From Ariolimax columbianus (lineage: Eukaryota; Mollusca; Gastropoda; Stylommatophora; Arionidae), in the NCBI GenBank assembly GCA_036924085.1, contig JAVGWX010000003.1, forward strand, positions 124,772,474 through 124,836,473: a stretch of DNA of 64,000 nucleotides, in the 5' to 3' direction. Under the pieces are notes generated by a model. It did not search any database. It had not been told where the DNA came from and saw only the letters and a list, made by a program, of their open reading frames with translations. Position numbers and translations under genes: made by a program. Below, piece by piece: positions 3,329 to 60,567 of the stretch (position 1 is the stretch's first letter; each line of letters opens with the position of its first letter).

Positions 3329-3453
3329 TCTGCATATCTGAAATAACTACAGTTAAATGTGAACTGTGCATGTGTATCATGATCATCTTATCTGCATATC
3401 TGAAATAACTACAGTTAAATGTGAACTGTGCATGTGTATCATGATCATCTTAT
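3329..3453. repeat. 62-bp direct duplication, two copies
   Basis: A 62-bp segment beginning TCTGCATATCTGAAATAACT is present twice in tandem with no visible differences, so the duplication is recent. Intronic. Confidence 0.9.
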
Positions 3454-5331: not shown

Positions 5332-5512
5332 TAATATTTTCTTTGATTTTTAATGCATTTTTGTTTTACCAGTAACTGGTTATGACTTGATCATTATTGT
5401 TCACCTTGGAGCTAATATTAGAGTTGCAATGCTCAACGGATTACTAGGCCTTCTCTCTCCCCTCCACTCTTCATAACACAATTTTTTTTTCCAGATGTTC
5501 TTATCTTCTCTA

Positions 5513-40600: not shown

Positions 40601-41066
40601 CTGTCCCAGTCGGCTCGTTTGTAATTCCAACGTGGGAGCGGTTTTGTTTCCTGTGGGCCTACTTCCATGTCAATGGTTAGCCTGATCGGCCTGTGGTTGA
40701 TTTAGTTGATTTAGCACCTGGCGGTCTATTTTATGGTGTATGTCCTGTGTGGAGAAGGCCAAATCTGGAGTCGAGGTGGTATGCCATGTTCTTGAATAGA
40801 AGCTAGGGCTATCCTCCGGCCTATTGATTAGGGAGAGATTTGCATCTATCTCCCAATCTTCCACTTCGTCACCTCTGCTGTCTGTGTCAGAGTATCCCCA
40901 TCTCTCCGAGTGGATGTTGAAATCTCCAACTACTATGCAGTTGGAGTCTCTGACCTCCATACTCGAGAGCGATAGGTCTCTGTTTGGGGGTCCGTACAGA
41001 TTGAAAATGCGGAGCTTCGTCTCTTGGGCCATTTTGTCAACTCCTACAATTTCTACTCAGTGGTCT
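37602..41066 (-). mobile_element. I-like non-LTR retrotransposon, copy A, with 12-bp TSD
   Basis: ACTCAGTGGTCT occurs at 37602-37613 and 41055-41066, so the insertion is 37614-41054 on the - strand. Its 3' end is at left (TTC repeats then TGCGTACACAGTCAGACAG), and its 5' end is truncated inside the APE endonuclease domain. It inserted at the boundary between the 34-bp minisatellite and a SINE head. Compared with copy C it lacks all sequence 5' of the IVGVD-region codons. Confidence 0.95.
37636..41032 (-). pseudogene. Copy A polyprotein pseudogene: partial APE, RT, RNase H, zinc knuckle
   Basis: Three pieces are out of register. 41032-40670 holds the C-terminal half of the APE endonuclease (FNLYGPPNRD, VVGDFNIHSERWG). 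40668-37936 encodes 910 residues with the linker, the reverse transcriptase (YRPISLL, QAGFRQHRSTEDQ, VDLEKAFDKVW, GVPQGGVLSP, FADDLAMW) and RNase H (YTDGS, AEAEAL, LLTDALE, NEEADRLAK). 37917-37636 holds the C-terminal zinc knuckle. Two lesions are visible. A 5-bp loss with local TGATTTAGT duplication near 40697-40710 removes the SDH catalytic motif of APE and shifts the frame. A TAA stop at about 37933-37935 replaces a Lys codon after HTGYT. The RT catalytic aspartates are intact. Confidence 0.93.
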
Positions 41067-41320
41067 AGAGATAAGGTTTCCGCCTCGTGTGCCGGAGGTC
41101 GCGGTTTGGTATCACGATGGAGACAGGGATGTTTGTCACGTGAATCTTCTGGTAAAAATGTCCCTGATCTTTGGGTAGTGAGATCAGACTCCCGTGTACA
41201 GTGTCACACGTTAAAAATTCCTTGGCAGTTGGAAGTCGAAAAGAGTAGGCTTAACAGCCGCTGTCCGGACAAAATTCAAGTTAAAAATCAACACAAGTTT
41301 TTTGAATCTTCTCCCAGGTA
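41055..41320 (+). mobile_element. tRNA-derived SINE, family 3
   Basis: The tRNA-like head has an A box in AGTGGTCTAGAGATAAGG and a diverged B box GGTCGCGGTTTGGTATCACG about 35 bp later. A body follows that contains GTCGAAAAGAGTAGGCTTAA and CAGCCGCTGTCCGGACAAAA. The 3' half of that body recurs at 43426-43560. Insertion of copy A split the array/SINE boundary exactly at the SINE head. Confidence 0.7.
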
Positions 41321-41520
41321 GTTTGTTAAGAGTAGCTATATATGGCGCCTAACTAGGTGCGGGTCGACTTAGCTCTAGTGTTTGAGTCTATTAAGATGGA
41401 CTTGCACATCAGTTAAACCACCTTCCAAGAAACTGGTTGTATATATACTGTAGAGGCTTCTAAACCAGTATAAAGATGTTAAGTTAATAACAACAGCAAC
41501 AACAATAACATCTTCCGACA
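41321..41520 (+). repeat. Partial copy of the 26.6-kb dispersed repeat
   Basis: It shares GTTAAGAGTAGCTATATATG, GGCGCCTAACTAGGTGCGGG, GAGTCTATTAAGATGGACTT and CTTCTAAACCAGTATAAAGA with the copies at 26595-27170 and 63440-63850. Confidence 0.7.
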
Positions 41521-43149
41521 AGTGCGAGCTAAGTTTAAATATTTTTTTTAAATGTTAGTTTTTGTTTGTTTTGTTTTGTTAATCAAGATCTCTCGGAACT
41601 CGTAGAGACCGTTCGCAGAATACTAGGATTCCACAGAACATCGATTTATAAACCGAGTTACAGAGTGACCCGGCCAATCTGACGGTAATCCGCAAGCTGC
41701 AGTCGAGTGATATCAATAATGCAGTTCAGACGAGGCACACATCATTTTCAAGATAATACATACACAATTTAGAGAAAAGCAAAACTACAATGCCAGAATA
41801 ACTGCGTCAAAAAGGAATGAGCAAGCCAGACGTGAACAAACTGAGAACAGGATTGGACGACTGTAACTTACTAAGCTCACCTATTGTAAAACGGGAGTAG
41901 AGAGAGTTGTTCGGGGGACTATCAACCACATAAATAATGAATTGCTATATAAACTATCACTGCATGAGTCGAGGTAAATGCTTTGAATTGATACAGACTT
42001 CCTGTTGTAAAGGTTCCAGCGAAAGAGAGATAAGAATGTGTTTAAAAGATGATAAAATACAGCTCCTAAATAGTTCAATTGGTAAATTCTCCTTTTAAAT
42101 TGACCTTGCCAGAAAGTAAATACTTCTACCGTCCGTATTGAAGAGTTGAGAGGGACATTCACGCATACTGCCAACATCAGTATTCCGTACAATCGATTAG
42201 ATGCGCTGGAAGACAAAGGGACACGGGGCAGGACGGAAGTGAGGTTGACTTAATGACGTCACAACCGGAGAAGACTCCCTATATCAAATCCTTTCAAGCG
42301 TTTTAGGTGACGTTAATTGGAGACTTCTTGTCTTTGAGAGTTTTGGTCACGTTCTGCTTCTCTTCCCAGCCAGCAACGTATGTCCGTGGACCTACTTTAT
42401 GGCAACCTAACGAACATAGTGACCTCGTGTAAGGCTAACCTAGTTAGATTTAGGTTAGAAAGTAGGTGGGTATGGGTATAGAAGATCAACAGACGGGCAG
42501 CGAGAGACAGATGAATGCATATATAAGATAAATACTGCAAGTCTGCCATTAACGTCATGGAGAAGAAAGATTACGTAAATATACAATAATATGACATATT
42601 CGAAACGAAGGCGCGTCACACCTGATTGATAATACTTCCCTGCGCAAGCGGTCAGCTTAGACGCCATGTTTGTTTGTTATCGTTGGATTGGCACAGCAAG
42701 CTTTGATCGAAACTGTGATGGAGTTACTTGAATCACATTGGGAAGAATGATTCAATGATGATCTCATGTTGATCAGGCAACAACAAAGAGCAGTAGAAAA
42801 AGATGATAATGAAAATGATAATACCTCCATGATCCTTATCAACAAAGGATGTGTCTGACGCTATGGAGCATTTTGTTATAACTTGCAATATTTACAGAAA
42901 AAAGATCTTCAACGTCAAAGAAATTCACGGACCAATAGGATAATAGCCAGGGGACATAACTGTTACCAGGAATTGTACACAGAAAACAGAGTGCACAGCA
43001 AACATTGGACATATTTTGATTAAAAAAAGGCCCAACATAAACAACAATACAAAATAGGTAAACATCCGGCAGCATTAGGAAGATCACCATCTGCCACACA
43101 ACCCCAACTGATGTGCTATCTGACTTTCTCAGTTGAGAAATTTGAAATG
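41521..43149. other. Spacer S1, nothing recognised
   Basis: About 1.6 kb of AT-rich DNA. Short frames (for example - strand 41881-42216 and 42839-43099) lack recognised domains or splice support. Confidence 0.4.
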
Positions 43150-43425
43150 GACAATGATTCTCCTCTACCTGTCAGTGATCACGAGAAGGACCCACATTCT
43201 CCTCTACCTGTCAGTCATCACAAGAACGAACCACATTCTCCTCTACCTTTCAGTGATCACGAGAACGAACCACATTCTCCTCTACCTGTCAGTCATCACA
43301 AGAAGGACCCACATTCTCCTCTACCTGTCAGTCATCACAAGAAGGACCCACATTCTCCTCTACCTGTCAGTCATCACAAGAAGGACCCACATTCTCCTCT
43401 ACCTGTCAGTCATCACTTCGTGGAC
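43150..43425. repeat. 39-bp minisatellite, ~7 units
   Basis: The unit CACATTCTCCTCTACCTGTC plus AGTCATCACAAGAAGGACC is followed directly by the SINE family 3 body. Duplicated at 50944-51219. Confidence 0.97.
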
Positions 43426-43560
43426 AGTGTCGAGCACGTTAATAATTCATTGACAGAAACGAAAAGAGTAGGTTAAACGGCCGCTGTCCGTACAAAATTA
43501 AAAAATGTCAGTCAAAAATCTACCTACATTACTTTCCCCCAGGTTTAGTAAGCCGCTAGA
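43426..43560 (+). mobile_element. SINE family 3, 3' half
   Basis: ACAGTGTCGAGCACGTTAAT, GAAACGAAAAGAGTAGGTTA and CGGCCGCTGTCCGTACAAAA align with the body of the SINE at 41055. The head is absent and its place is taken by the minisatellite. Confidence 0.65.
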
Positions 43561-43626
43561 AGTTTAAAAACAAAATACCTACTACGGATAGCCTTCGGCT
43601 ACCTAGCAACATACATCAACATGTTT

Positions 43627-44132
43627 GAATACCAGAATTCCAATGCAACAAGGAGGCAGACAGACTGGCAAAAGAAGGTGCAAGACTACCATAACCAGAT
43701 TCTAGTGTGACCTACGAGGAGTCCAAAAGGTTTATTATGGCCAGATACATGGCAAATGGGAAATAGAACATACTGGATACACAAAAAATTATGCCTACTA
43801 CCAATTGAACAGAAGAGAGCAGGTCGTGATCTTCAGACTCCGCACAGGCCACAACAGACGGATGTACCATCTATTCAATAAACTGAAGATAGGTGGCACT
43901 GACGAATGCAAATGTGGTACAGGGAAAACGACCGCTGAACATCTGCTGCAAAACTGCCCGACATACAAGGACCAGAGAAAGCACATGTGGCCATCATCTG
44001 TGGCAACACTAGACAAGCTCTATGACAGTGTTGACAGCCTCAGGATGACAGCTGCTCTCTTCGAACAAATACAAGTTGACGTCTGACTGCGTACGAAGAA
44101 GAAGAAGAAGAAAAAGAAGAATACCAGGATTC
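43627..44132 (+). mobile_element. 5'-truncated I-like retrotransposon fragment with 14-bp TSD
   Basis: GAATACCAGAATTC (43627-43640) and GAATACCAGGATTC (44119-44132, one mismatch) flank an insertion that starts inside the RNase H NEEADRLAK region. It carries frameshifts, then the post-RNase H domain and zinc knuckle, and ends GCGTACGAAGAAGAAGAAGA. Older KIQVDV-type subfamily. Confidence 0.88.
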
Positions 44133-44161
44133 TAAGTTAGTACATAGACATACATGGTTCA

Positions 44162-44397
44162 GATACCGTGTCTCCAAAAAGAGTAGTACAGGGAAAACGA
44201 CCGCTGAACATCTGCTGCAAAACTGCCCGACATAAGAGGACCAGAGAAAGCACATGTGGCCATCTCCAGTGGCAACACTAGACAAGCTCTATGGCAGTGT
44301 CGACAGCATCAGGATGATCGCTGTTTTTTTTCGGAAAAATACAGGTTGACGTTTGACAGCGCACGAAGAAGAAGCAGAAGAAGAAGATACCGTGTCT
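44162..44397 (+). mobile_element. Short I-like retrotransposon fragment with internal deletion, 12-bp TSD
   Basis: GATACCGTGTCT lies at 44162-44173 and 44386-44397. The 212-bp insertion starts with CCAAAAAGAGTAG (RNase H region), jumps directly to TACAGGGAAAACGACCGCTG (zinc knuckle) and ends with the GAAGAAGCAGAAGAAGAA tail. The internal ~0.45 kb is missing. It lies 30 bp from the end of the previous fragment. Confidence 0.88.
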
Positions 44398-45392
44398 AAA
44401 CAAAGACATGAACGGAACTTATATTACAATCATGACGTCTTCATCCGAGACAAAGAACAATTCAGATATAACAGGCTAACACATCGTTATAGCGACGGTG
44501 ACCACTGATTTAATACTTATCCAAACAAAAGGTGTTTGGATAGCCTATTAGTACATCTGACAATCACAATCGTTGTGATATCGTTTTTATTTGTGTTGTT
44601 ATCTATCCCCGATGAAGGCTTTTGGTCGTAACATTGCATTCGTTCATGTTTTTGTTGATGTTGTGGCGCAGTACGTAAGTTATATTTGTGCTTGTTATTA
44701 TTATTGAGGATGAACACGAAGTTCACTGGAAGTAAAATACACTGCTTTGATAAACTGTTCAAACATTCGTCGAAGAAAAGAAATAGAATATGAAGCAGTC
44801 TTGCTTATCATCAAATATAGCTTTCAACACAGACGGAAACAGAAAACACAAGACTAATGAATCTTTGAAATCCAAAAGCCGATTTAAAAAAATACTTGTC
44901 CGACATTCTAGTTATTATTAGCACCAAATAAGTATTTAAAGATGGCGGTCGGGTCGAAAGTTCACGGTGATCTCATGTTTAAAAACTTCTTGATCTTAAA
45001 AATCTCTCATGTGTGACATCCACCACTACCAGCTATTCAATAAGTTATGGTCAGGTGAAAACACATGACGTACTTCAAATAAACACTTCATTAAACATGC
45101 GGGTGTTTCTGTTTGATTGTGTGTGCAGAAGATAATACTAAGATTAGACTGTTTGTCACCAATTTAACTGTACATTTTACTATAATTGATTTTGTTTACA
45201 ACATATTACGGTACGTGAACAAGCATTAAAAAGTGTTCCACGGCGTATTCAATTACAGTAATATCCACTTATTTCTCTGCTTCTGTTTTCGTAGAAGGCA
45301 TAATAGTTGGAGAATGCGCGCCTATCTCTATGAGTTATGCATATTACTATTCATATTTCTTTCATTTCCTGCTTAATATAAAATTGTAAAAT
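44398..45392. other. Spacer S1, nothing recognised
   Basis: AT-rich DNA without supported features, ending next to the TSD TAACCATTGTTTT (45393-45405). Confidence 0.4.
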
Positions 45393-45405
45393 TAACCATT
45401 GTTTT

Positions 45406-48400
45406 CTTCTTCTTCTTCTGCGTACACAGTCAGACAGTAACCATTATTTTCTCGAAAAAAGCGGCGGTCATCCTGAGACTCTCGCCACTACCATAGAGCT
45501 TGTCTTGCAGTTCCACTGGCAATGGCCACATCTGCTCTCTCTGATCCTCGTATGTCGGGCAGTTCTGCAGCAGATGTTCAGTGGTCATTTTACCAGTACC
45601 GCACGGGCATTCGTCGGTACACCCTATCTTCAATTTGTTGAAGAGGTGGTACCTCAGTCTGTTGTGGCCAGTGCGAAGTCTGAAGACAACGACCTGCTCT
45701 CTTCGGTTCAACTGGTAATAGGCATCGTTTTTGGTGTAACCAGTATGTTCGGTTTCCCATTTGGACATGTACCTGGCTTTGATAAGCCGTTTTGACTCTT
45801 CGTACGTCATACTGGTATCTATTTGTGGTAGCCTTGCACCTTGTTTTGCCAGTCTGTCTGCCTCCTCGTTGCCTTGGATGTTGCAGTGTGACGGAACCCA
45901 CTGTACCACTACCCTTTTTGGTGCGGACTGTTGGCACAGTTTGCAGAGTGCTGCTCTTAAGTCATTAAGCTCAGTGTTTTTCTGGCTTTTTAGCGCTGTG
46001 ACTACTTCGAGAGCATCTGTCAGCAGGACTATATGGCTCTCATTTTCACTGTGTAATGCCATTTCTTCCACTGCCGCCCTCAGTGCCTCTGCCTCTGCTC
46101 TGAAATTGCTCGTGTACTTACCAGTAGCGAATGACAGTGTTATTTTTCTGCCATTTGGTAGGTTCAGGAATGCTCCTGCCCCTCCGTTCTGTGTAGTGTT
46201 TGTTACAGACCCGTCGGTGTATGCATGGGTCCAGTCCATGCTTGGGTAGCTTTTCGTTATGAAGCTTAGGGTAGTGTCTCTCCTTTCTTTTTCGGTCTGG
46301 CAGTTTTTGTTTGCAATACCTGGTATATTTTCTACCACCTCTGGAAATATATCCTGCCTCCAAGTAGGTTTTCGTACAGTATTGATGGGTTTTGGTGTTG
46401 TTAGTGCGTTTATGGGATCTTCGTGCATCTTTGCTTTGGCTATTTCTGCAAAGTTTCTCCGCTTTAGTTTCCCAGTTCCCAGATTGTTTAGCCTCTGGTA
46501 CATTGGATGGTCCGTCAGTCTTCGGAGTTTCTCTGACTGCAGCTGGGCTCTGCAGTCTCTTCTGTCGGTCATGGATTGCAGATTTGTAATCTTTTCAAGT
46601 TCTACAATTGGCGTTGACTTCATGCCACCTGTTATGATTCTCATGGCTTGGTTTTGAAGTTTGTTAACTTTATCGAAGTTCGCCTTCGCTGCTGTTGTCC
46701 ATGCCGCGATGCCATACTCGAGAACTGGTCTCACTCTTCCAGTGTACAGTTTCTTTAGTATGCCTTCGTCTGCTCCCCAGCTTGTGCCAGCAAGTTTCCT
46801 CATGATCGCCATTCTTTCTCTGGCTTTCATTCGGTTTCTCTCAATCTGACTTTTCCATGTCATGCGCCGATCAAATGTGACTCCCAGATAGGTTGGGTTG
46901 TCGTTTGGCTGCAGGATTTTGCCATTTAGGCTTAGTTTGGTACTTTGGGGTTTTAATGAGAGCGAGAATATTGTGCACGTGGTTTTCTCCTCGTTTATTT
47001 TGACCAGCCATGAGTTCGCCCACTCTTCCAGCGATGTTGGGGCCGTCTGCATCCGATTTCTTGCTATGGTGAGATTCTTTTCAGAGGTCCACATAGCCAG
47101 ATCGTCTGCAAACATTGAGCTATGGACTCTTCTTGGTATATTCTCTGTAATATCGTTTATATATACCAGGAAGAGTGTGGGTGACAGTACTCCCCCTTGG
47201 GGTACTCCCTGCTCGAGTGTCACCTTTTTGCTCATCTGCCCTTGTACTTGGACTCTGGCCGTTCTTTGTTTGAGGTAGTGGTTGATCCACTTGTACATCT
47301 TCCCACAAACATCACTTCTTCTTAGCTTGACTCTAAGTCCATCCTTCCAGACTTTGTCAAATGCCTTTTCCAGATCCACCCATACAGCTACTGTGTGTTT
47401 CTGTGGCTGGTAGGCATCTTCTATCTCTTGGGCTATGAGGATGACCTGGTCCTCAGTGGATCTGTGCTGTCTAAAGCCGGCTTGCTGTGGAATTAGTATT
47501 CGTTTTTCTTCCAGATGCCGCATCAGTCTGGTGTTTATCATCCGTTCCATCAGCTTGCCGAAAAACCTCAGTAGGCTTATGGGCCTGTATCCATTCGGAT
47601 CTGTTTTGTCCTTTCCTGTTTTTGGTACTGGTACCAGTATTGCATCTTTCCATGCCTGGGGTACAATACCCCTTTTCCAGCTTTGGTTCAGGACTGATAG
47701 TAGTTTTTTCTTCGCTGTTTGGCCCAGCCCCATCAGCATTTCGTTTGTTATCCCGTCTTTTCCGGGAGATTTCCTTCTCTTTAGTGTTCTCATAGCCTCT
47801 TCCATTTCGCGCATTGTTAGTTTGGCCATCATGTGCTCTTCAGGAGCCGTATTTATGTTTTCGTGCCCCTTTAGCTCTTCGCTAATGTCTGTATGCTTAT
47901 CTGCAGGGACCTCGATGTGGTTTGCTCTGGCATAGTGATCGACAAAGGCGTTTGCGGCTTTCTTACCCGTGATCAAGTTCTCGCCTTGCTTGATAGTAAT
48001 TTGTTTATTTGACGGGGTTTCGTCGTTCATGGCTCTGACTAGCTTCCATAGCTTGTTCCCTTCTTTGTCCAGGTTTAGACTTTCCGTTTTATTTTTCCAG
48101 CTTTCTCTTGCTGTTTGCTTGAGCGTGTGTTTGTACTTCGCCGCGGCGGCTTTGAGGGCGATGTTTGCCTCCATGGATTTTTCTCGTTCTGCTATGTTCC
48201 TAGCATTTGTTACTGCATCTTCCACTTTCTGCAACTCATCATTCCAGTAGGGCTTATAGTTTTTCCTAGCTCCTCTTGGGATGGTTTCAGTGGCGGCTTG
48301 CATTATTGCCTTGCTTAGGCTCTCTACCATGGGCTTCATTTTGGTGTTTCGTGTGTTGATGGTTTCACACAGCCCATCTGTCAGGATTGCAAATCTGTCC

Positions 48401-48848
48401 CAGTCGGCTCGTTTGTAATTCCAACGTGGGAGCGGTTTTGTTTCCTGTGGGCCTACTTCCATGTCAATGGTTAGCCTGATCGGCCTGTGGTTGATTTAGT
48501 TGATTTAGCACCTGGCGGTCTATTTTATGGTGTATGTCCTGTGTGGAGAAGGCCAAATCTGGAGTCGAGGTGGTATGCCATGTTCTTGAATAGAAGCTAG
48601 GGCTATCCTCCGGCCTATTGATTAGGGAGAGATTTGCATCTATCTCCCAATCTTCCACTTCGTCACCTCTGCTGTCTGTGTCAGAGTATCCCCATCTCTC
48701 CGAGTGGATGTTGAAATCTCCAACTACTATGCAGTTGGAGTCTCTGACCTCCATACTCGAGAGCGATAGGTCTCTGTTTGGGGGTCCGTACAGATTGAAA
48801 ATGCGGAGCTTCGTCTCTTGGGCCATTTTGTCAACTCCTACAATTTCT
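45406..48848 (-). mobile_element. I-like non-LTR retrotransposon, copy B (recombinant)
   Basis: The left flank is TAACCATTGTTTT (45393-45405, the TSD of copy C), and the right flank is ACTCAGTGGTCT (48849-48860, the TSD of copy A). Its two ends thus come from two different insertions. The 3' half matches C at diagnostic sites, and the 5' end shares A's truncation point and A's APE frameshift. A block at about 47393-47985 differs from both A and C. Confidence 0.93.
45430..48462 (-). CDS. Copy B reverse transcriptase - RNase H - zinc knuckle frame
   Basis: An uninterrupted frame of 1,010 codons encodes the linker, a full reverse transcriptase (VDLEKAFDKVW, GVPQGGVLSP, SSMFADDLAMW), RNase H with its four acidic residues (YTDGS, AEAEAL, LLTDALE, NEEADRLAK) and the C-terminal C-x-C-x8-H-x4-C knuckle. 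The upstream APE half (48826-48464) is out of frame because of the same 5-bp lesion as in copy A, which also removes the SDH motif. The RT could be made only if translation starts at the internal Met (MEVGPQE). Unique replacements such as RFFGK for SCVGK and AYQPQ for AYQAQ lie in the RT fingers/palm. Autonomous retrotransposition is unlikely without APE. Confidence 0.9.
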   Translation of the reverse strand: MEVGPQETKPLPRWNYKRADWDRFAILTDGLCETINTRNTKMKPMVESLSKAIMQAATETIPRGARKNYKPYWNDELQKVEDAVTNARNIAEREKSMEANIALKAAAAKYKHTLKQTARESWKNKTESLNLDKEGNKLWKLVRAMNDETPSNKQITIKQGENLITGKKAANAFVDHYARANHIEVPADKHTDISEELKGHENINTAPEEHMMAKLTMREMEEAMRTLKRRKSPGKDGITNEMLMGLGQTAKKKLLSVLNQSWKRGIVPQAWKDAILVPVPKTGKDKTDPNGYRPISLLRFFGKLMERMINTRLMRHLEEKRILIPQQAGFRQHRSTEDQVILIAQEIEDAYQPQKHTVAVWVDLEKAFDKVWKDGLRVKLRRSDVCGKMYKWINHYLKQRTARVQVQGQMSKKVTLEQGVPQGGVLSPTLFLVYINDITENIPRRVHSSMFADDLAMWTSEKNLTIARNRMQTAPTSLEEWANSWLVKINEEKTTCTIFSLSLKPQSTKLSLNGKILQPNDNPTYLGVTFDRRMTWKSQIERNRMKARERMAIMRKLAGTSWGADEGILKKLYTGRVRPVLEYGIAAWTTAAKANFDKVNKLQNQAMRIITGGMKSTPIVELEKITNLQSMTDRRDCRAQLQSEKLRRLTDHPMYQRLNNLGTGKLKRRNFAEIAKAKMHEDPINALTTPKPINTVRKPTWRQDIFPEVVENIPGIANKNCQTEKERRDTTLSFITKSYPSMDWTHAYTDGSVTNTTQNGGAGAFLNLPNGRKITLSFATGKYTSNFRAEAEALRAAVEEMALHSENESHIVLLTDALEVVTALKSQKNTELNDLRAALCKLCQQSAPKRVVVQWVPSHCNIQGNEEADRLAKQGARLPQIDTSMTYEESKRLIKARYMSKWETEHTGYTKNDAYYQLNRREQVVVFRLRTGHNRLRYHLFNKLKIGCTDECPCGTGKMTTEHLLQNCPTYEDQREQMWPLPVELQDKLYGSGESLRMTAAFFEKIMVTV

Positions 48849-50943
48849 ACTCAGTGGTCTAGAGATAAGGTTTCCGCCTCGTGTGCCGGAGGTCGCGGTT
48901 TGGTATCACGATGGAGACAGGGATGTTTGTCACGTGAATCTTCTGGTAAAAATGTCCCTGATCTTTGGGTAGTGAGATCAGACTCCCGTGTACAGTGTCA
49001 CACGTTAAAAATTCCTTGGCAGTTGGAAGTCGAAAAGAGTAGGCTTAACAGCCGCTGTCCGGACAAAATTCAAGTTAAAAATCAACACAAGTTTTTTGAA
49101 TCTTCTCCCAGGTAGTTTGTTAAGAGTAGCTATATATGGCGCCTAACTAGGTGCGGGTCGACTTAGCTCTAGTGTTTGAGTCTATTAAGATGGACTTGCA
49201 CATCAGTTAAACCACCTTCCAAGAAACTGGTTGTATATATACTGTAGAGGCTTCTAAACCAGTATAAAGATGTTAAGTTAATAACAACAGCAACAACAAT
49301 AACATCTTCCGACAAGTGCGAGCTAAGTTTAAATATTTTTTTTAAATGTTAGTTTTTGTTTGTTTTGTTTTGTTAATCAAGATCTCTCGGAACTCGTAGA
49401 GACCGTTCGCAGAATACTAGGATTCCACAGAACATCGATTTATAAACCGAGTTACAGAGTGACCCGGCCAATCTGACGGTAATCCGCAAGCTGCAGTCGA
49501 GTGATATCAATAATGCAGTTCAGACGAGGCACACATCATTTTCAAGATAATACATACACAATTTAGAGAAAAGCAAAACTACAATGCCAGAATAACTGCG
49601 TCAAAAAGGAATGAGCAAGCCAGACGTGAACAAACTGAGAACAGGATTGGACGACTGTAACTTACTAAGCTCACCTATTGTAAAACGGGAGTAGAGAGAG
49701 TTGTTCGGGGGACTATCAACCACATAAATAATGAATTGCTATATAAACTATCACTGCATGAGTCGAGGTAAATGCTTTGAATTGATACAGACTTCCTGTT
49801 GTAAAGGTTCCAGCGAAAGAGAGATAAGAATGTGTTTAAAAGATGATAAAATACAGCTCCTAAATAGTTCAATTGGTAAATTCTCCTTTTAAATTGACCT
49901 TGCCAGAAAGTAAATACTTCTACCGTCCGTATTGAAGAGTTGAGAGGGACATTCACGCATACTGCCAACATCAGTATTCCGTACAATCGATTAGATGCGC
50001 TGGAAGACAAAGGGACACGGGGCAGGACGGAAGTGAGGTTGACTTAATGACGTCACAACCGGAGAAGACTCCCTATATCAAATCCTTTCAAGCGTTTTAG
50101 GTGACGTTAATTGGAGACTTCTTGTCTTTGAGAGTTTTGGTCACGTTCTGCTTCTCTTCCCAGCCAGCAACGTATGTCCGTGGACCTACTTTATGGCAAC
50201 CTAACGAACATAGTGACCTCGTGTAAGGCTAACCTAGTTAGATTTAGGTTAGAAAGTAGGTGGGTATGGGTATAGAAGATCAACAGACGGGCAGCGAGAG
50301 ACAGATGAATGCATATATAAGATAAATACTGCAAGTCTGCCATTAACGTCATGGAGAAGAAAGATTACGTAAATATACAATAATATGACATATTCGAAAC
50401 GAAGGCGCGTCACACCTGATTGATAATACTTCCCTGCGCAAGCGGTCAGCTTAGACGCCATGTTTGTTTGTTATCGTTGGATTGGCACAGCAAGCTTTGA
50501 TCGAAACTGTGATGGAGTTACTTGAATCACATTGGGAAGAATGATTCAATGATGATCTCATGTTGATCAGGCAACAACAAAGAGCAGTAGAAAAAGATGA
50601 TAATGAAAATGATAATACCTCCATGATCCTTATCAACAAAGGATGTGTCTGACGCTATGGAGCATTTTGTTATAACTTGCAATATTTACAGAAAAAAGAT
50701 CTTCAACGTCAAAGAAATTCACGGACCAATAGGATAATAGCCAGGGGACATAACTGTTACCAGGAATTGTACACAGAAAACAGAGTGCACAGCAAACATT
50801 GGACATATTTTGATTAAAAAAAGGCCCAACATAAACAACAATACAAAATAGGTAAACATCCGGCAGCATTAGGAAGATCACCATCTGCCACACAACCCCA
50901 ACTGATGTGCTATCTGACTTTCTCAGTTGAGAAATTTGAAATG

Positions 50944-51219
50944 GACAATGATTCTCCTCTACCTGTCAGTGATCACGAGAAGGACCCACATTCTCCTCTA
51001 CCTGTCAGTCATCACAAGAACGAACCACATTCTCCTCTACCTTTCAGTGATCACGAGAACGAACCACATTCTCCTCTACCTGTCAGTCATCACAAGAAGG
51101 ACCCACATTCTCCTCTACCTGTCAGTCATCACAAGAAGGACCCACATTCTCCTCTACCTGTCAGTCATCACAAGAAGGACCCACATTCTCCTCTACCTGT
51201 CAGTCATCACTTCGTGGAC
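50944..51219. repeat. 39-bp minisatellite, ~7 units (copy in S2)
   Basis: Same array as 43150-43425, same unit number and variants. A fast-evolving array that is identical in both spacers argues for a very recent duplication. Confidence 0.97.
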
Positions 51220-51420
51220 AGTGTCGAGCACGTTAATAATTCATTGACAGAAACGAAAAGAGTAGGTTAAACGGCCGCTGTCCGTACAAAATTAAAAAAT
51301 GTCAGTCAAAAATCTACCTACATTACTTTCCCCCAGGTTTAGTAAGCCGCTAGAAGTTTAAAAACAAAATACCTACTACGGATAGCCTTCGGCTACCTAG
51401 CAACATACATCAACATGTTT

Positions 51421-51926
51421 GAATACCAGAATTCCAATGCAACAAGGAGGCAGACAGACTGGCAAAAGAAGGTGCAAGACTACCATAACCAGATTCTAGT
51501 GTGACCTACGAGGAGTCCAAAAGGTTTATTATGGCCAGATACATGGCAAATGGGAAATAGAACATACTGGATACACAAAAAATTATGCCTACTACCAATT
51601 GAACAGAAGAGAGCAGGTCGTGATCTTCAGACTCCGCACAGGCCACAACAGACGGATGTACCATCTATTCAATAAACTGAAGATAGGTGGCACTGACGAA
51701 TGCAAATGTGGTACAGGGAAAACGACCGCTGAACATCTGCTGCAAAACTGCCCGACATACAAGGACCAGAGAAAGCACATGTGGCCATCATCTGTGGCAA
51801 CACTAGACAAGCTCTATGACAGTGTTGACAGCCTCAGGATGACAGCTGCTCTCTTCGAACAAATACAAGTTGACGTCTGACTGCGTACGAAGAAGAAGAA
51901 GAAGAAAAAGAAGAATACCAGGATTC
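51421..51926 (+). mobile_element. I-like retrotransposon fragment (S2 copy)
   Basis: Duplicate of 43627-44132, with the same TSD pair and the same one-base TSD mismatch. It was present before the segmental duplication. Confidence 0.88.
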
Positions 51927-51955
51927 TAAGTTAGTACATAGACATACATGGTTCA

Positions 51956-52191
51956 GATACCGTGTCTCCAAAAAGAGTAGTACAGGGAAAACGACCGCTG
52001 AACATCTGCTGCAAAACTGCCCGACATAAGAGGACCAGAGAAAGCACATGTGGCCATCTCCAGTGGCAACACTAGACAAGCTCTATGGCAGTGTCGACAG
52101 CATCAGGATGATCGCTGTTTTTTTTCGGAAAAATACAGGTTGACGTTTGACAGCGCACGAAGAAGAAGCAGAAGAAGAAGATACCGTGTCT
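51956..52191 (+). mobile_element. Short deleted I-like fragment (S2 copy)
   Basis: Duplicate of 44162-44397 with the same internal deletion and TSD. Confidence 0.88.
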
Positions 52192-53223
52192 AAACAAAGA
52201 CATGAACGGAACTTATATTACAATCATGACGTCTTCATCCGAGACAAAGAACAATTCAGATATAACAGGCTAACACATCGTTATAGCGACGGTGACCACT
52301 GATTTAATACTTATCCAAACAAAAGGTGTTTGGATAGCCTATTAGTACATCTGACAATCACAATCGTTGTGATATCGTTTTTATTTGTGTTGTTATCTAT
52401 CCCCGATGAAGGCTTTTGGTCGTAACATTGCATTCGTTCATGTTTTTGTTGATGTTGTGGCGCAGTACGTAAGTTATATTTGTGCTTGTTATTATTATTG
52501 AGGATGAACACGAAGTTCACTGGAAGTAAAATACACTGCTTTGATAAACTGTTCAAACATTCGTCGAAGAAAAGAAATAGAATATGAAGCAGTCTTGCTT
52601 ATCATCAAATATAGCTTTCAACACAGACGGAAACAGAAAACACAAGACTAATGAATCTTTGAAATCCAAAAGCCGATTTAAAAAAATACTTGTCCGACAT
52701 TCTAGTTATTATTAGCACCAAATAAGTATTTAAAGATGGCGGTCGGGTCGAAAGTTCACGGTGATCTCATGTTTAAAAACTTCTTGATCTTAAAAATCTC
52801 TCATGTGTGACATCCACCACTACCAGCTATTCAATAAGTTATGGTCAGGTGAAAACACATGACGTACTTCAAATAAACACTTCATTAAACATGCGGGTGT
52901 TTCTGTTTGATTGTGTGTGCAGAAGATAATACTAAGATTAGACTGTTTGTCACCAATTTAACTGTACATTTTACTATAATTGATTTTGTTTACAACATAT
53001 TACGGTACGTGAACAAGCATTAAAAAGTGTTCCACGGCGTATTCAATTACAGTAATATCCACTTATTTCTCTGCTTCTGTTTTCGTAGAAGGCATAATAG
53101 TTGGAGAATGCGCGCCTATCTCTATGAGTTATGCATATTACTATTCATATTTCTTTCATTTCCTGCTTAATATAAAATTGTAAAATTAACCATTGTTTTC
53201 TTCTTCTTCTTCTGCGTACACAG

Positions 53224-56200
53224 TCAGACAGTAACCATTATTTTCTCGAAAAAAGCGGCGGTCATCCTGAGACTCTCGCCACTACCATAGAGCTTGTCTT
53301 GCAGTTCCACTGGCAATGGCCACATCTGCTCTCTCTGATCCTCGTATGTCGGGCAGTTCTGCAGCAGATGTTCAGTGGTCATTTTACCAGTACCGCACGG
53401 GCATTCGTCGGTACACCCTATCTTCAATTTGTTGAAGAGGTGGTACCTCAGTCTGTTGTGGCCAGTGCGAAGTCTGAAGACAACGACCTGCTCTCTTCGG
53501 TTCAACTGGTAATAGGCATCGTTTTTGGTGTAACCAGTATGTTCGGTTTCCCATTTGGACATGTACCTGGCTTTGATAAGCCGTTTTGACTCTTCGTACG
53601 TCATACTGGTATCTATTTGTGGTAGCCTTGCACCTTGTTTTGCCAGTCTGTCTGCCTCCTCGTTGCCTTGGATGTTGCAGTGTGACGGAACCCACTGTAC
53701 CACTACCCTTTTTGGTGCGGACTGTTGGCACAGTTTGCAGAGTGCTGCTCTTAAGTCATTAAGCTCAGTGTTTTTCTGGCTTTTTAGCGCTGTGACTACT
53801 TCGAGAGCATCTGTCAGCAGGACTATATGGCTCTCATTTTCACTGTGTAATGCCATTTCTTCCACTGCCGCCCTCAGTGCCTCTGCCTCTGCTCTGAAAT
53901 TGCTCGTGTACTTACCAGTAGCGAATGACAGTGTTATTTTTCTGCCATTTGGTAGGTTCAGGAATGCTCCTGCCCCTCCGTTCTGTGTAGTGTTTGTTAC
54001 AAACCCGTCGGTGTATGCATGGGTCCAGTCCATGCTTGGGTAGCTTTTCGTTATGAAGCTTAGGGTAGTGTCTCTCCTTTCTTTTTCGGTCTGGCAGTTT
54101 TTGTTTGCAATACCTGGTATATTTTCTACCACCTCTGGAAATATATCCTGCCTCCAAGTAGGTTTTCGTACAGTATTGATGGGTTTTGGTGTTGTTAGTG
54201 CGTTTATGGGATCTTCGTGCATCTTTGCTTTGGCTATTTCTGCAAAGTTTCTCCGCTTTAGTTTCCCAGTTCCCAGATTGTTTAGCCTCTGGTACATTGG
54301 ATGGTCCGTCAGTCTTCGGAGTTTCTCTGACTGCAGCTGGGCTCTGCAGTCTCTTCTGTCGGTCATGGATTGCAGATTTGTAATCTTTTCAAGTTCTACA
54401 ATTGGCGTTGACTTCATGCCACCTGTTATGATTCTCATGGCTTGGTTTTGAAGTTTGTTAACTTTATCGAAGTTCGCCTTCGCTGCTGTTGTCCATGCCG
54501 CGATGCCATACTCGAGAACTGGTCTCACTCTTCCAGTGTACAGTTTCTTTAGTATGCCTTCGTCTGCTCCCCAGCTTGTGCCAGCAAGTTTCCTCATGAT
54601 CGCCATTCTTTCTCTGGCTTTCATTCGGTTTCTCTCAATCTGACTTTTCCATGTCATGCGCCGATCAAATGTGACTCCCAGATAGGTTGGGTTGTCGTTT
54701 GGCTGCAGGATTTTGCCATTTAGGCTTAGTTTGGTACTTTGGGGTTTTAATGAGAGCGAGAATATTGTGCACGTGGTTTTCTCCTCGTTTATTTTGACCA
54801 GCCATGAGTTCGCCCACTCTTCCAGCGATGTTGGGGCCGTCTGCATCCGATTTCTTGCTATGGTGAGATTCTTTTCAGAGGTCCACATAGCCAGATCGTC
54901 TGCAAACATTGAGCTATGGACTCTTCTTGGTATATTCTCTGTAATATCGTTTATATATACCAGGAAGAGTGTGGGTGACAGTACTCCCCCTTGGGGTACT
55001 CCCTGCTCGAGTGTCACCTTTTTGCTCATCTGCCCTTGTACTTGGACTCTGGCCGTTCTTTGTTTGAGGTAGTGGTTGATCCACTTGTACATCTTCCCAC
55101 AAACATCACTTCTTCTTAGCTTGACTCTAAGTCCATCCTTCCAGACTTTGTCAAATGCCTTTTCCAGATCCACCCATACAGCTACTGTGTGTTTCTGTGC
55201 CTGGTAGGCATCTTCTATCTCTTGGGCTATGAGGATGACCTGGTCCTCAGTGGATCTGTGCTGTCTAAAGCCGGCTTGCTGTGGAATTAGTATTCGTTTT
55301 TCTTCCAGATGCCACATCAGTCTGGTGTTTATCATCCGTTCCATCAGCTTGCCGACACAGCTCAGTAGGCTTATGGGCCTGTATCCATTTGGATCTGTTT
55401 TGTCCTTTCCTGTTTTTGGTACTGGTACCAGTATTGCATCTTTCCATGCCTGGGGTACAATACCCCTTTTCCAGCTTTGGTTCAGGACTGATAGTAGTTT
55501 TTTCTTCGCTGTTTGGCCCAGCCCCATCAGCATTTCGTTTGTTATCCCGTCTTTTCCGGGAGATTTCCTTCTCTTTAGTGTTCTCATAGCCTCTTCCATT
55601 TCGCGCATTGTTAGTTTGGCCATCATGTGCTCTTCGGGAGCCGTATTTATGTTTTCGTGTCCCTTTAGCTCTTCGCTAATGTCTGTATGCTTTTCTGCAG
55701 GGACCTCGATGTGGTTTGCTCTGGCATAGTGATCGACAAAGGCGTTTGCGGCTTTCTTACCTGTGATCAAGTTCTCGCCCTGCTTGATAGTAATTTGTTT
55801 ATTTGACGGGGTTTCGTCGTTCATGGCTCTGACTAGCTTCCATAGCTTGTTCCCTTCTTTGTCCAGGTTTAGACTTTCCGTTTTATTTTTCCAGCTTTCT
55901 CTTGCTGTTTGCTTGAGCGTGTGTTTGTACTTCGCCGCGGCGGCTTTGAGGGCGATGTTTGCCTCCATGGATTTTTCTCGTTCTGCTATGTTCCTAGCAT
56001 TTGTTACTGCATCTTCCACTTTCTGCAACTCATCATTCCAGTAGGGCTTATAGTTTTTCCTAGCTCCTCTTGGGATGGTTTCAGTGGCGGCTTGCATTAT
56101 TGCCTTGCTTAGGCTCTCTACCATGGGCTTCATTTTGGTGTTTCGTGTGTTGATGGTTTCACACAGCCCATCTGTCAGGATTGCAAATCTGTCCCAGTCG

Positions 56201-57132
56201 GCTCGTTTGTAATTCCAACGTGGGAGCGGTTTTGTTTCCTGTGGGCCTACTTCCATGTCAATGGTTAGCCTGATCGGCCTGTGGTCGCTACCTGCCAGTT
56301 GGTTTAGCACCTGGCGGTCTATTTTATAGTGTATGTCCTGTGTGGAGAAGGCCAAATCTGGAGTCGAGGAGGTATGCCATGTTCTTGAATAGAAGCTAGG
56401 GCTATCCTCCGGCCTATTGATTAGGGAGAGATTTGCATCTATCTCCCAATCTTCCACTTCGTCACCTCTGCTGTCTGTGTCAGAGTATCCCCATCTCTCC
56501 GAGTGGCTGTTGAAATCTCCAACCACTATGCAGTTGGAGTCTCTGACCTCCATACTCGAGAGCGATAGGTCTCTGTTTGGTGGTCCGTACAGATTGAAAA
56601 TGCGGAGCTTCGTCTCTTGAGCCATTATGTCAACTCCTACAATTTCTGCTTGTCTGGTGTGATTGACAGGTACCGCGCTACTCGGTATGCTGTTTCTGGT
56701 CAGTATCAGGACCCCTCCTTTGTGGCCTTCTCTATCTAGACGGAAAGTCTGGTATCCTCTGATTGAGAATTTATGGTTATTGTTGAGGTGCGTTTCCTGG
56801 ATACATGCCACGTCAATCTTACCTTCATGCAGGTGATGTGTTAGGGAAAGTTTTTTGTTAATGACTCCCTCCGCATTCCACTGTAATATTCTGAGGGTCT
56901 TGAAGTTTTGGCCAATAGTCGTTTCCCCATAGCCATGTGCCTTGACTCCACGACACATGGGTGGGTGACCACCAGTAGTCAAGGGTGGGCCCCTTCGAGG
57001 CGTGGGGCCCGGCGCTATCGCTGCCTGGCGGGTCTCCTCAGGATGAGCGCCATACGTTTTTCGAATAGGTTGTGCTGCCATCATACTGTGATTTACGTTG
57101 CACTGTTTTGTTAGGCTTGCGGCCCCGTGCAT
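53224..57132 (-). CDS. I-superfamily non-LTR retrotransposon polyprotein (APE-RT-RNase H-zinc knuckle)
   Basis: This is an uninterrupted frame of 1,302 codons. APE endonuclease spans about residues 78-292 (LQWNAEGV N86, IQETH E113, NLYGPPN, GDFNSH D206/N208, SDHRP D283/H284). A linker runs to ~520. The reverse transcriptase (~525-830) has YRPISLL, QAGFRQHRSTEDQ, VDLEKAFDKVW (D655), GVPQGGVLSP and FADD (743-746). RNase H (~1037-1170) has YTDG D1042, AEAEAL E1082/E1084, LLTDAL D1108, SHCN H1151 and NEEADR D1161. A C-terminal C1244-x-C-x8-H1255-x4-C1260 knuckle ends the protein. The first ~76 residues are Pro-rich and unassigned, so the true start is uncertain. Domain order and single ORF fit the I/Ingi/Nimb group; the exact clade needs a tree. 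YTDGF replaces YTDGS seen in A and B, next to the catalytic Asp. All catalytic residues look intact. The enzyme would nick target DNA and reverse-transcribe its own RNA. Confidence 0.95.
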   Translation of the reverse strand: MHGAASLTKQCNVNHSMMAAQPIRKTYGAHPEETRQAAIAPGPTPRRGPPLTTGGHPPMCRGVKAHGYGETTIGQNFKTLRILQWNAEGVINKKLSLTHHLHEGKIDVACIQETHLNNNHKFSIRGYQTFRLDREGHKGGVLILTRNSIPSSAVPVNHTRQAEIVGVDIMAQETKLRIFNLYGPPNRDLSLSSMEVRDSNCIVVGDFNSHSERWGYSDTDSRGDEVEDWEIDANLSLINRPEDSPSFYSRTWHTSSTPDLAFSTQDIHYKIDRQVLNQLAGSDHRPIRLTIDMEVGPQETKPLPRWNYKRADWDRFAILTDGLCETINTRNTKMKPMVESLSKAIMQAATETIPRGARKNYKPYWNDELQKVEDAVTNARNIAEREKSMEANIALKAAAAKYKHTLKQTARESWKNKTESLNLDKEGNKLWKLVRAMNDETPSNKQITIKQGENLITGKKAANAFVDHYARANHIEVPAEKHTDISEELKGHENINTAPEEHMMAKLTMREMEEAMRTLKRRKSPGKDGITNEMLMGLGQTAKKKLLSVLNQSWKRGIVPQAWKDAILVPVPKTGKDKTDPNGYRPISLLSCVGKLMERMINTRLMWHLEEKRILIPQQAGFRQHRSTEDQVILIAQEIEDAYQAQKHTVAVWVDLEKAFDKVWKDGLRVKLRRSDVCGKMYKWINHYLKQRTARVQVQGQMSKKVTLEQGVPQGGVLSPTLFLVYINDITENIPRRVHSSMFADDLAMWTSEKNLTIARNRMQTAPTSLEEWANSWLVKINEEKTTCTIFSLSLKPQSTKLSLNGKILQPNDNPTYLGVTFDRRMTWKSQIERNRMKARERMAIMRKLAGTSWGADEGILKKLYTGRVRPVLEYGIAAWTTAAKANFDKVNKLQNQAMRIITGGMKSTPIVELEKITNLQSMTDRRDCRAQLQSEKLRRLTDHPMYQRLNNLGTGKLKRRNFAEIAKAKMHEDPINALTTPKPINTVRKPTWRQDIFPEVVENIPGIANKNCQTEKERRDTTLSFITKSYPSMDWTHAYTDGFVTNTTQNGGAGAFLNLPNGRKITLSFATGKYTSNFRAEAEALRAAVEEMALHSENESHIVLLTDALEVVTALKSQKNTELNDLRAALCKLCQQSAPKRVVVQWVPSHCNIQGNEEADRLAKQGARLPQIDTSMTYEESKRLIKARYMSKWETEHTGYTKNDAYYQLNRREQVVVFRLRTGHNRLRYHLFNKLKIGCTDECPCGTGKMTTEHLLQNCPTYEDQREQMWPLPVELQDKLYGSGESLRMTAAFFEKIMVTV

Positions 57133-58019
57133 CCGATTTCAACAGGCGTTTCTGTAGGGATGCCCTCCTTAGCCTTTGGCTGTCCCCAGCCTATCTGCAA
57201 GGCAGCAGTTGTTTACGATCAGAGTTTTCTCTCCTATGGAAGTTGTCTTACCAGACTATCGAGTCTTCACTACTCGTGTCTATAGGGTGCAATGATGGTA
57301 TGTGATATATGAGATGGACTGGTTTACCCGGAAGAGAGGCAGTCCAGTGTGTCTGTATCCCAGGATCGTCACGTCCTGCCAGAAACGTAGCATTTGCATG
57401 TGAGTGGGGTATCTCTTTTTCCCTTTATTTTCTTGGCTTCTATGCAGGGATGGTACGCCTAGCATTCCCCGCCACCTGGGGTGTTGACACAGTGGGGCAG
57501 GTGTGCAATGTCCGCTGGTCTGCATCTCTTCTGCGTCCAGCATGATAGTTATGGCTGATAACGTACAGAGGTAGATATCGTAACCGGAGTGCATTTAGCC
57601 AGAGGACAAGCCTGGTAATGTCACAGAGATGTTGATCGCCTGGTGTGCGGACAACTCTCATGGTCAGTGGTTGAGTCTTGACAGTTCACAGTGTGGTGGC
57701 TGCTCTACTGTTTTCGACACCCCGACCAGGTTCTAAGTCTTTGGTTGGTGTTTTTCGCACCCCATCGCCGTATAGGGTGAGTATCAAGCAGTTTTCCGCC
57801 CGCTTTGATTTGCGGGCGGCAAGGACCTCTTACTGTGGCTCTACCTGATAGGGCTGGGGCGCAAGCCCCAGGTCCCGAGCATGTAGGAGCCTCCCATTGC
57901 AGTGGTGCTGAGATTTTGGGCGGGATTGCGGCTTTCAAGGGTTCGGCCGTAATCCCCCACATGGTAGCCTCGCGCCCTTGGCTTATCAGCCTGGTACGTG
58001 AACCAAAGTGTCTGCGGCT
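57133..58019 (-). other. 5' UTR of copy C; no recognisable ORF1
   Basis: GC-richer than the rest of the window. On the - strand there are only short frames (57705-58061, 57280-57594, 57440-57661), none with CCHC knuckles, coiled coil or an esterase signature. I-type elements usually have an upstream ORF1 with CCHC motifs; here none is visible, so the element resembles single-ORF Ingi-type designs. Start and function are inferred. Confidence 0.6.
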
Positions 58020-58686
58020 CCTCTCGATTTGAGCTGGTTTTCCGTAGCAACGCCCTGTCATTTGTAGGGTAAAACTGACCTGTCTTCAGATCTATTTCCA
58101 GCACCCGTTCACTATTTGGTCAGACGAATTTATTGAGGGCTTTTGTTTGTCAATGACCAGGTATTTGAAATCTGCGGAGTTAAACACGATTTCCGTAGCG
58201 TTCTTTCATTTGAGCTGACTTTTGTCCGTGAGTCTAATACCAGCGTACGTTCATTATTAGACCCAAACGGCAGTGCTCTCAATTTGTCAGTTGTTCTACA
58301 GTATTGGCGTGTTCAGTCAAATTAAGCCGCAGGTTCCACACCTGGTGGTGCCCTTCCGTCAATTCCCTTAGCGAGACAATCAAGTTTCTTAAAGGGTAGC
58401 CCCAAAGATTTTCGAGGGTCTAATTCCAGCACATGTTCTCTATTAGACCCCACTAAGGTGTACTTTTTGATAGTCATTCTGCAGTATTGGCGTGGTAAGT
58501 TAACTTAGGTCTCAGGCTCCACTCCTGATAGTGCTCTTCCGTCAATTCCTTTATCAAACACTGGATGCAGACAAAACCGAGCCACAGGGGACATAACCCC
58601 AGATTTCTGGGGGTCTAAGTCCAGCACCAGTTCCATATTAGACTCCAGAAGAGTGGTCTCGGCATGTCAATCATTTCAGTGTTGGC
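58020..58686 (-). repeat. 5' monomers of copy C carrying diverged 18S rRNA segments
   Basis: About four degenerate units are marked on + by TTCCAGCACNNGTTC then TATTAGAC at about 58098, 58237, 58425 and 58618. Two units contain a ~62-bp copy of 18S rRNA, at 58308-58369 and 58491-58553 (CCTGGTGGTGCCCTTCCGTC and CCTGATAGTGCTCTTCCGTC). These correspond to the block from GGAATTGACGG to ACTCAACACG in rRNA sense. In both, and at the main 18S junction (58686/58687), the 18S sequence meets the same non-rRNA sequence (CAGTATTGGC or CAGTGTTGGC on +). The 18S copies are several to ~25 percent diverged while the main 18S looks intact, so they are old parts of the element. Confidence 0.85.
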
Positions 58687-58709
58687 CGTGTTGAGTCAAA
58701 TTAAGCCGC

Positions 58710-58758
<49 letters not shown>

Positions 58759-59924
58759 TTTGCAACCATACTTCCCCCGGAACCCAAACACTTTGGTTTC
58801 CCGGAAGCTGCCCGCAGAGTCATCGAAGCAACTCCTGCGGATCGCTAGTCGGCATCGTTTATGGTCAGAACTACGACGGTATCTGATCGTCTTCGCGCCT
58901 CTGACTTTCGTTCTTGATTAATGAAAACATTCTTGACAAATGCTTTCGCAGTAGCTCGTCTTGCGGCGATCCAAGAATTTCACCTCTAACGCCGCAATAC
59001 GAATGCCCCCGTTTGTCCCTGTTAATCATTACCTCCAGTTCCGAAAACCAACAAAATAGAACCGAGGTCCTATTCCATTATTCCATGCACCATTATTCAG
59101 GCAGCCGAGGCCTGCTTTGAACACTCTAATTTTTCAAAGTAAACGCGCCGGCCACCCAGGACGCTCAGCGAAGAGCACCCGTGGGAGAGAGCCGGCAGAC
59201 GGTAGGGCAGGAGACAACGGGCAGTGAACCGGCGCGAGCCGGACCGCCCGCCTGCGCCTGAGATCCAACTACGAGCTTTTTAACTGCAACAACTTTAATA
59301 TACGCTATTGGAGCTGGAATTACCGCGGCTGCTGGCACCAGACTTGCCCTCCAATAGATCCTCGTTAAAGGGTTTAAAGTGTACTCATTCCAATTACGGG
59401 GCCTCGAAAGAGTCCCGTATTGTTATTTTTCGTCACTACCTCCCCGTGCCGGGAGTGGGTAAGTTGCGCGCCTGCTGCCTTCCTTGGATGTGGTAGCCGT
59501 TTCTCATGCTCCCTCTCCGGAATCGAACCCTGATTCCCCGTTACCCGTTACAAACATGGTAGGCATGTCACGTACCATCGACATTTGATAGGGCAGACAT
59601 TTGAAAGATGCGTCGCCGGCACATGAGGCCATGCGATCAGCACAAAGTTATCCAGAGTCACCAGTGGGGACGCCGCAACCCCGCGAGGGGAAACGACGAT
59701 TGGTTTTGAACTAATAAAAGCGCTCTTTCCGCGAGGGTCGGAGCTTGGTAAGCATGTATTAGCTCTAGAATTGCCACAGTTATCCAAGTAGGATCGTGTC
59801 ATCTAAGGAACCTCGACTGATTTAATGAGCCATTCGCGGTTTCACCGTGAGACAGTGTGAACTTAGACATGCATGGCTTAATCTTTGAGACAAGCATATG
59901 ACTACTGGCAGGATCAACCAGATA
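58687..59924 (-). rRNA. 18S rRNA, 5' two-thirds (partial, retrotransposed)
   Basis: The reverse complement starts with the universal TATCTGGTTGATCCTGCCAG at 59924 and continues colinearly through the conserved GGTAATTCCAGCTCCAATAG region (about 59318), GTGAAATTCTTGGATCG (about 58980) and GAATTGACGGAAGGGCACCA (about 58735). It ends at ACTCAACACGG (58687). About 1,238 nt are present; the 3' third of 18S, ITS1, 5.8S and 28S are absent. The conserved stretches I know show no lesions, so the copy is recent. Because it sits inside the 13-bp TSD of copy C, it is a retrotransposed piece and not a functional rRNA gene. Confidence 0.95.
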
Positions 59925-60554
59925 TCTGTCGGAGACGTACGTACAGCACACACCGGTCGGCGGAGGAAGGGTGTGTAAAAAGCCTCGCTGGGACGACGGC
60001 CGCAGGGACCGACTGACGGGACGGACGGTTTGTTCCACCCGTCCCTCACTCCGTCGACCTAGGACCGCCTGACAGGGGCCTCCCACACGCACCAGACGAC
60101 CGACCGACCGGGCTCGCTCGAGGAGGGATGGCAGCGCTCTGTGCAGAACGGATCCCAACGACCTCGGCGACGAATTTCACTGGGACTAGAGACACAATTT
60201 GGCCTGCCCTTCTTCTCCGTAGGGAGAACGCAGGGCCTCGAGGCAACGATTCCTGCTTTCCATTTGCCGGTCACAAGCTCTTTGCGAGAGTCGGACCACC
60301 AGCGAGACGTACTGTCGAGCTCTGCTATAAGCCTTAGATAAATCACCACGGACGGACCACGTTTCCTGATACGGACCAGACTAGCGCACCTCGGTGGAGG
60401 AGCCACTACCACAAACCGCACCCAATTCGCACTACGGGGAAAGGCATGCGAGCGTTTTCCGCAAGCCCGCGCTATCGCTCCGCCTGGCGGGACTGAGATC
60501 GCTTTACGAACACTGGTTGAAATTGAGTCGCCGCGGCGAGACAACTACCCCAGA
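59925..60554 (-). other. 5' external transcribed spacer of rDNA (partial, retrotransposed)
   Basis: This is a GC-rich sequence directly upstream of the 18S 5' end and different from the AT-rich DNA beyond 60568. It ends exactly at the TSD. The position next to 18S and the composition identify it as 5' ETS; ETS sequences are not conserved enough to confirm from memory. The RNA 5' end would be near CTGGGGTAGTTGTCTCGCCG, possibly at or near the Pol I start site. Confidence 0.75.
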
Positions 60555-60567
60555 TAACCATTGTTTT

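Follow-up and report, generated by a model that had tools for sequence, protein, structure and literature searches.

How a retrotransposon comes to carry the start of a ribosomal RNA gene at its 5' end is the question raised by a locus in a 64,000-nucleotide stretch of the Ariolimax columbianus genome (the window). The locus is a 7.36 kb composite which lies on the minus strand between 13 bp repeats and consists, in the direction of the element, of a putative 5' external transcribed spacer (ETS), 18S rRNA, monomers, a leader, an open reading frame (ORF) and a GAA tail. As the initial annotation had reported, the repeat, TAACCATTGTTTT, flanks this block: exact copies were found at 53187–53199, the target-site duplication (TSD) copy at the 3' end of the element, and at 60555–60567, the copy at the 5' end of the insert. 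Seven matches to this 13-mer with at most one mismatch were found, compared with 0.18 expected per window.

The ORF (53224–57132, minus strand) is an open frame of 1,302 codons encoding APE, RT and RNase H, with Pfam matches to Exo_endo_phos, RVT_1 and RNase_H (PF03372, PF14529, PF00078 and PF00075); judging from the consensus start of its relatives, the true start may lie about 16 codons further in. It is followed by the 3' end with its GAA-rich tail (53200–53223, minus strand). Upstream of this ORF on the minus strand, the longest open frame in the insert measures 161 codons and gave no Pfam match. Searches returned 284 related proteins, the nearest among the matches listed being 67% identical; 12 relatives aligned from the 120 listed were 42–67% identical, and the four of these 120 with a named organism were all from gastropods (three from Littorina saxatilis and one from Batillaria attramentaria). 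A single ORF combining APE, RT and RNase H is the arrangement of an Ingi clade/I superfamily LINE, and the element can provisionally be called Ingi-like by analogy with the elements described in the accessible part of PMC11203168. Like it, the gastropod Ingi elements belong to the I superfamily, and they are present in large numbers in Batillaria and Elysia; in the same part of that paper leaders were not found described, and rRNA appears once, in the title of a reference (PMC11203168). Pattern searches for relatives gave 80 stretches in viral contigs and 18 in bacterial and archaeal genomes, none of which was confirmed. With 18S as the query nothing was found in the viral contigs, and with 28S a single contig, in which eukaryotic 28S is limited to the first ∼120 bases (L001:1–130); what follows looks unrelated, and the contig is probably chimeric. 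Elsewhere in the window, an 18 bp tandem repeat at 5507–7129 has an open frame of 555 codons.

Twelve homologous copies of the element are present in the window; nine of these were checked for end repeats, leaving out the copy E2 (see below) and two copies within a duplicated flank. Exact direct repeats of 9–14 bp were present at the ends of six of the nine, including the ETS–18S insert. The TSDs measured 13, 14, 13, 12 and 9 bp in the five other copies and 13 bp in the insert; two copies were without any end repeat of at least 8 bp and one had an 8 bp repeat off its ends. The earlier statement that other members of the family have 9–14 bp TSDs was thus borne out in five of the eight others checked, and each of these five duplications is the copy's own and unlike the sites of the rest. 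Because the 13 bp duplication around the whole composite is of this 9–14 bp kind, a single insertion event is indicated, and the proposal that one insertion carried the ETS, 18S and element together is well supported. The 13-mer was also considered as a piece of the element's own 3' end; this was ruled out by its absence from E1 and from the copy at 11416. R1 and R2, and besides them R7 and R8, are rDNA-specific R elements. Fixed-site insertion of this type was not seen within the window: the TSDs of six of the nine copies are unlike, and rRNA matches at the Rfam gathering score are confined to the ETS–18S insert, so that none of the other copies seen here is in rDNA. These gathering-score matches were to SSU and LSU rRNA only, a search that a diverged Pr77 HDV-like ribozyme, such as that described at the 5' end for trypanosomatids in the accessible part of PMC4035085, could escape. 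Near the 3' end of the element, at 53232–53244, lies a 13-mer, TAACCATTATTTT, that matches the target 13-mer at 53187–53199 in all but one base. From the window match rate, ∼10−4 such 13-mers are expected per 50-base stretch, a value judged post hoc; the likeness might be a hint of pairing between RNA and target, or chance.

A third exact copy of the 13-mer, absent from the initial annotation, was found at 45393–45405, where it was duplicated along with its flank. The region 37611–48851 is repeated at 45405–56650 with 99.1% identity and a period of 7,794 bp, and the flank between the duplicated copies is identical at 4,330 of 4,330 bp. Three element copies are involved: E1 (37611–41054, minus strand), which is 5'-truncated and has its own 12 bp TSD, ACTCAGTGGTCT; E2 (45405–48851, minus strand), a recombinant 5'-truncated copy with an E3-like 3' part and an E1-like 5' part; and E3, the copy bearing the 13 bp duplication. 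Among the variable columns, 58 group E2 with E3 to the exclusion of E1, and all of these precede column 2,025; another 18 group it with E1 to the exclusion of E3, 17 of them beyond column 3,087. At eleven columns between 2,002 and 2,582 E1 and E3 agree against E2, and a conversion tract is therefore needed besides unequal exchange. Read from these columns, the 7.8 kb duplication looks like the product of unequal exchange between E1 and E3, which would have carried the 3' copy of the E3 duplication to 45393; the duplication spanning 37611–56650 reflects either unequal exchange in the very recent past or a duplication made in assembly. The possibility had been raised that the 13-mer at 60555–60567 is part of a common repeat. 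Since the third exact copy is accounted for by the 7,794 bp tandem duplication, it does not undermine the TSD.

The undecayed 18S rRNA comprises the first 1,239 nt (58686–59924, minus strand). Its limits were set by reading, with the start at 59924 (TATCTGGTTGATCC) and the end at 58686 (ACTCAACACGG); Rfam eukaryotic SSU rRNA matches at 59921–58778 (942.7 bits, model positions 4–1116), and an extra SSU piece at 58776–58749 (26.5 bits) is below the gathering score. Besides the Rfam models, working reference sequences were used for human 18S, human 28S and a protostome-type 18S. The final 64 nt of the 1,239 nt are identical to the working human 18S reference, which is not the species' own. Directly upstream of the 18S start lie 630 nt (59925–60554, minus strand) which, by position and base composition (G+C 61% at 60000–60499 versus 34–40% in windows outside the insert), are the putative 5' ETS of the species. 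Beyond the 5' part of the insert, neither the 18S nor the leader matched anything in the window. Shuffles, here and below, were random resamplings in which neighbour-base frequencies are kept on average, not exactly. The putative ETS matches the ORF over 29 columns, its 5' end (60494–60466) aligning with the start of the latter (57035–57009), CCCGCCAGGC..AGCGATAGCGC, with 29.7 bits compared with a largest value of 28.3 bits in 300 shuffles.

The sequence between the undecayed 18S and the ORF proved to be built largely from older rRNA, a feature missing from the initial annotation. On the minus strand, the remainder of the outermost monomer (58554–58685) consists of degenerate 18S past a deletion of ∼17 nt followed by a 28S piece (58641–58612). 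The second monomer (58371–58553) consists of an 18S piece (58553–58491, 84%), a linker and a 28S piece (58446–58413), and the third (58117–58370) of an 18S piece (58370–58308, 94%), a degenerate 18S continuation and a 28S piece. These are followed by a diverged 28S rRNA 3' end (57653–58116), identified with Rfam and BLAST, and by the rest of the leader (57133–57652), in which no rRNA match was found. The 63 nt 18S piece of the two inner monomers scored 64.0 bits (84%) and 81.1 bits (94%) with BLAST, compared with a largest score of 25.4 bits in 200 shuffles. The 28S piece of ∼30 nt is present in all three monomers, with 5–6 mismatches in 29 positions each, and starts about where the long 28S segment starts; it was detected by BLAST in the outermost and second monomers (28.3 and 34.0 bits) and, with no BLAST row, by local alignment in the third (score 17 versus a largest score of 16 in 2,000 shuffles). 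For the long segment, the Rfam LSU rRNA 3' end matches at 58056–57653 with 66.9 bits (gathering score 50) over model positions 3005–3399 of 3401, i.e. to within 2 nt of the model end, and the working human 28S reference aligns from 58116 with 72% identity over 208 columns (125 bits versus a largest score of 26.8 bits in 200 shuffles). Ribosomal RNA, 18S as well as 28S, is the source of the monomers and of a large part of the leader. Given the old 18S/28S pieces in the monomers and the diverged 28S 3' end, the family probably had an 18S–28S mosaic leader before the ETS–18S insertion.

The junction between the undecayed 18S and this leader bears directly on how the two were joined. The bases after ACTCAACACGG, CCAACACTGAAATGATTGACA..., resume the alignment with 18S after a gap of about 17 nt. 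Against the protostome-type reference this continuation scored 18 in the outermost monomer (0 of 2,000 shuffles as high) and 16 in the third (p = 0.0005, 1 of 2,000 shuffles); against human 18S the values were p = 0.003 and p = 0.0015, respectively. The linker of the middle monomer gave no 18S signal with either reference (score 6, p = 0.80, protostome type; p = 0.57, human 18S). When the three monomers were summed, 0 of 2,000 shuffles reached the observed value. In a fixed ungapped register of 31 positions the outermost, middle and third monomers have 23, 11 and 13 matches to 18S, respectively, and the alignment of the third requires a 2 nt gap. The change from undecayed to degenerate 18S is sharp, with mismatches to the working reference at 0 of the 64 positions before the junction and at 8 of the 31 positions beyond (Fisher p = 6 × 10−5), and the 18S pieces of the inner monomers end at the same 18S position. 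As 18S homology continues past ACTCAACACGG in two of the three monomers, the place is best read, from these alignments, as a deletion within an older, degenerate 18S segment. Insertion of the element into 18S at ACTCAACACGG is ruled out as written. The initial annotation had the element start right after ACTCAACACGG, inside an 18S gene, and be expressed by Pol I read-through; the start does not stand, the leader containing 28S pieces as well, and the read-through is not supported in the form proposed. The Magnaporthe switch motif GCC*A/U is readable at the junction (GCC|AACACTG), which may be chance.

The reading that we prefer, on a judgement close to evenly balanced, is that the RT, while copying an 18S-like leader, switched by homology to pre-rRNA and ran on into the ETS. 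An Ingi-like LINE without rDNA specificity, its leader already containing old 18S and 28S pieces, would have been copied at a nick in ordinary DNA. Once the RT had come to the stretch of the outermost monomer that resembles 18S, the nascent cDNA would have been complementary to 18S; this cDNA would have moved to pre-rRNA at the matching place, and the RT would have copied 18S backwards to its start and onward through the 5' ETS before the second end was joined, leaving the 13 bp duplication. The older leader probably arose likewise, by a jump from the 5' end of the element to the 3' end of mature 28S, then one from 28S to 18S, and then tandem duplication of the 18S–28S unit. The switch from undecayed to decayed 18S sits inside continuing 18S homology, and a template change from an 18S-like leader would make the fresh 18S stop in register with the old, as found. 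Stretches resembling 18S that could guide such a transfer were available in the leader, since the inner monomers keep their 18S piece (84 and 94%). With its last matched model position at 3399 of 3401, the 28S segment reaches the 3' end of the mature molecule, which fits an end-to-end template jump. A single duplication encloses both the ETS and the fresh 18S, so both entered at or before this insertion, and a template that carried the putative ETS would have been unprocessed pre-rRNA. That the leader is built from old, decayed 18S and 28S pieces suggests that the RT slid onto rRNA, rather than that the element was resident in a ribosomal gene.

Several points weigh against this template switch. 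Plain template choice might favour mature 18S over pre-rRNA, the middle linker has no 18S signal, and the one copy with a full 5' end that was examined is the insert itself. In Magnaporthe, moreover, guidance by homology is not general: in the accessible part of PMC2104539, the switch sites are without homology.

The strongest rival, which we regard as possible but clearly the less probable, is that an element copy lay in an 18S gene and that a Pol I read-through RNA joining pre-rRNA and element was reverse-transcribed and inserted elsewhere. R1 and R2 are precedents for co-transcription with pre-rRNA. The putative ETS and the 18S from its start run in the same direction as the element, and read-through explains the ETS without a further assumption; it stays a rival because the ETS, if genuine, shows that pre-rRNA was the template. 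R1 copies outside rDNA that carry 7–28 bp of upstream 28S also speak for it (PMC2718515, accessible part). However, the junction is a deletion in old 18S with no fresh insertion boundary, the element copies of the window lie outside rDNA, and a prior event is needed that placed the element in register into 18S; such entry would have been by recombination or by annealing of cDNA through the 18S-like leader. It is unlikely that the ETS–18S 5' end is instead a settled feature of an active subfamily, gained earlier and inherited in full length. The decayed rRNA pieces in the leader do suggest persistence over many generations of the family, but the 18S shows no divergence from the working reference in its final 64 nt, compared with 6–28% divergence in the measured downstream leader rRNA pieces, and a transcript begun at the Pol I start would not include, and so would not bring along, the promoter. 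Fusion of the element to rDNA by an assembly artefact or later recombination is very improbable: the adjacent 7.8 kb duplication with its identical 4,330 bp flank makes local assembly errors conceivable, but the composite is bounded on either side by the exact 13 bp repeat, which is of a kind that the family makes.

The template switch has partial precedents. In the insert, host RNA is joined to a LINE inside one TSD with the LINE tail 3', as in a LINE/host RNA chimera. Such 28S/LINE-1 chimeras have been catalogued in mammals (18 loci, 28S segments of 50–482 nt, median 269 nt, 83% in sense orientation) and attributed to template switching or RNA ligation (PMC13174262, accessible part). They resemble the slug insert in having the 3' part of a LINE with sense rRNA at its 5' side, but their rRNA segments are of 28S, 18S being unmentioned in the main text, and inherited rRNA monomers were not found described in the accessible part (PMC13174262). 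Copies of melanogaster-type R1 outside rDNA likewise take upstream rRNA gene sequence to a non-rDNA site, but only 7–28 bp of it, with a constant end point that corresponds to a genuine rDNA insertion site (PMC2718515, accessible part). Single and double LINE template jumps are documented in Magnaporthe, where several RNAs are fused per insertion and one insertion is flanked by identical 14 bp repeats; there the RNAs are WEIRD and Mg-SINE and the switch points lack homology (PMC2104539, accessible part). The earlier view that no counterpart had been described is therefore too strong, given the R1 copies with 28S (PMC2718515, accessible part) and the mammalian chimeras (PMC13174262, accessible part). 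A LINE leader of inherited 18S–28S monomers was not found among the matches listed from the open-access literature.

LINE leaders turn over fast and their origin is often obscure. This one can be understood as preserving a history of captures, first of 28S, then of 18S and then of pre-rRNA with a putative ETS, the most recent being recognisable because it has not decayed. Two questions become testable here: whether this family reverse-transcribes its RNA close to pre-rRNA, and whether each capture is guided by homology left from the one before. Rather doubtfully, the 18S–28S monomers could be a working landing pad for rRNA, through which copying regains a pre-rRNA 5' extension in each round; if that were true, the element would renew its 5' end from rRNA and so offset 5' truncation.
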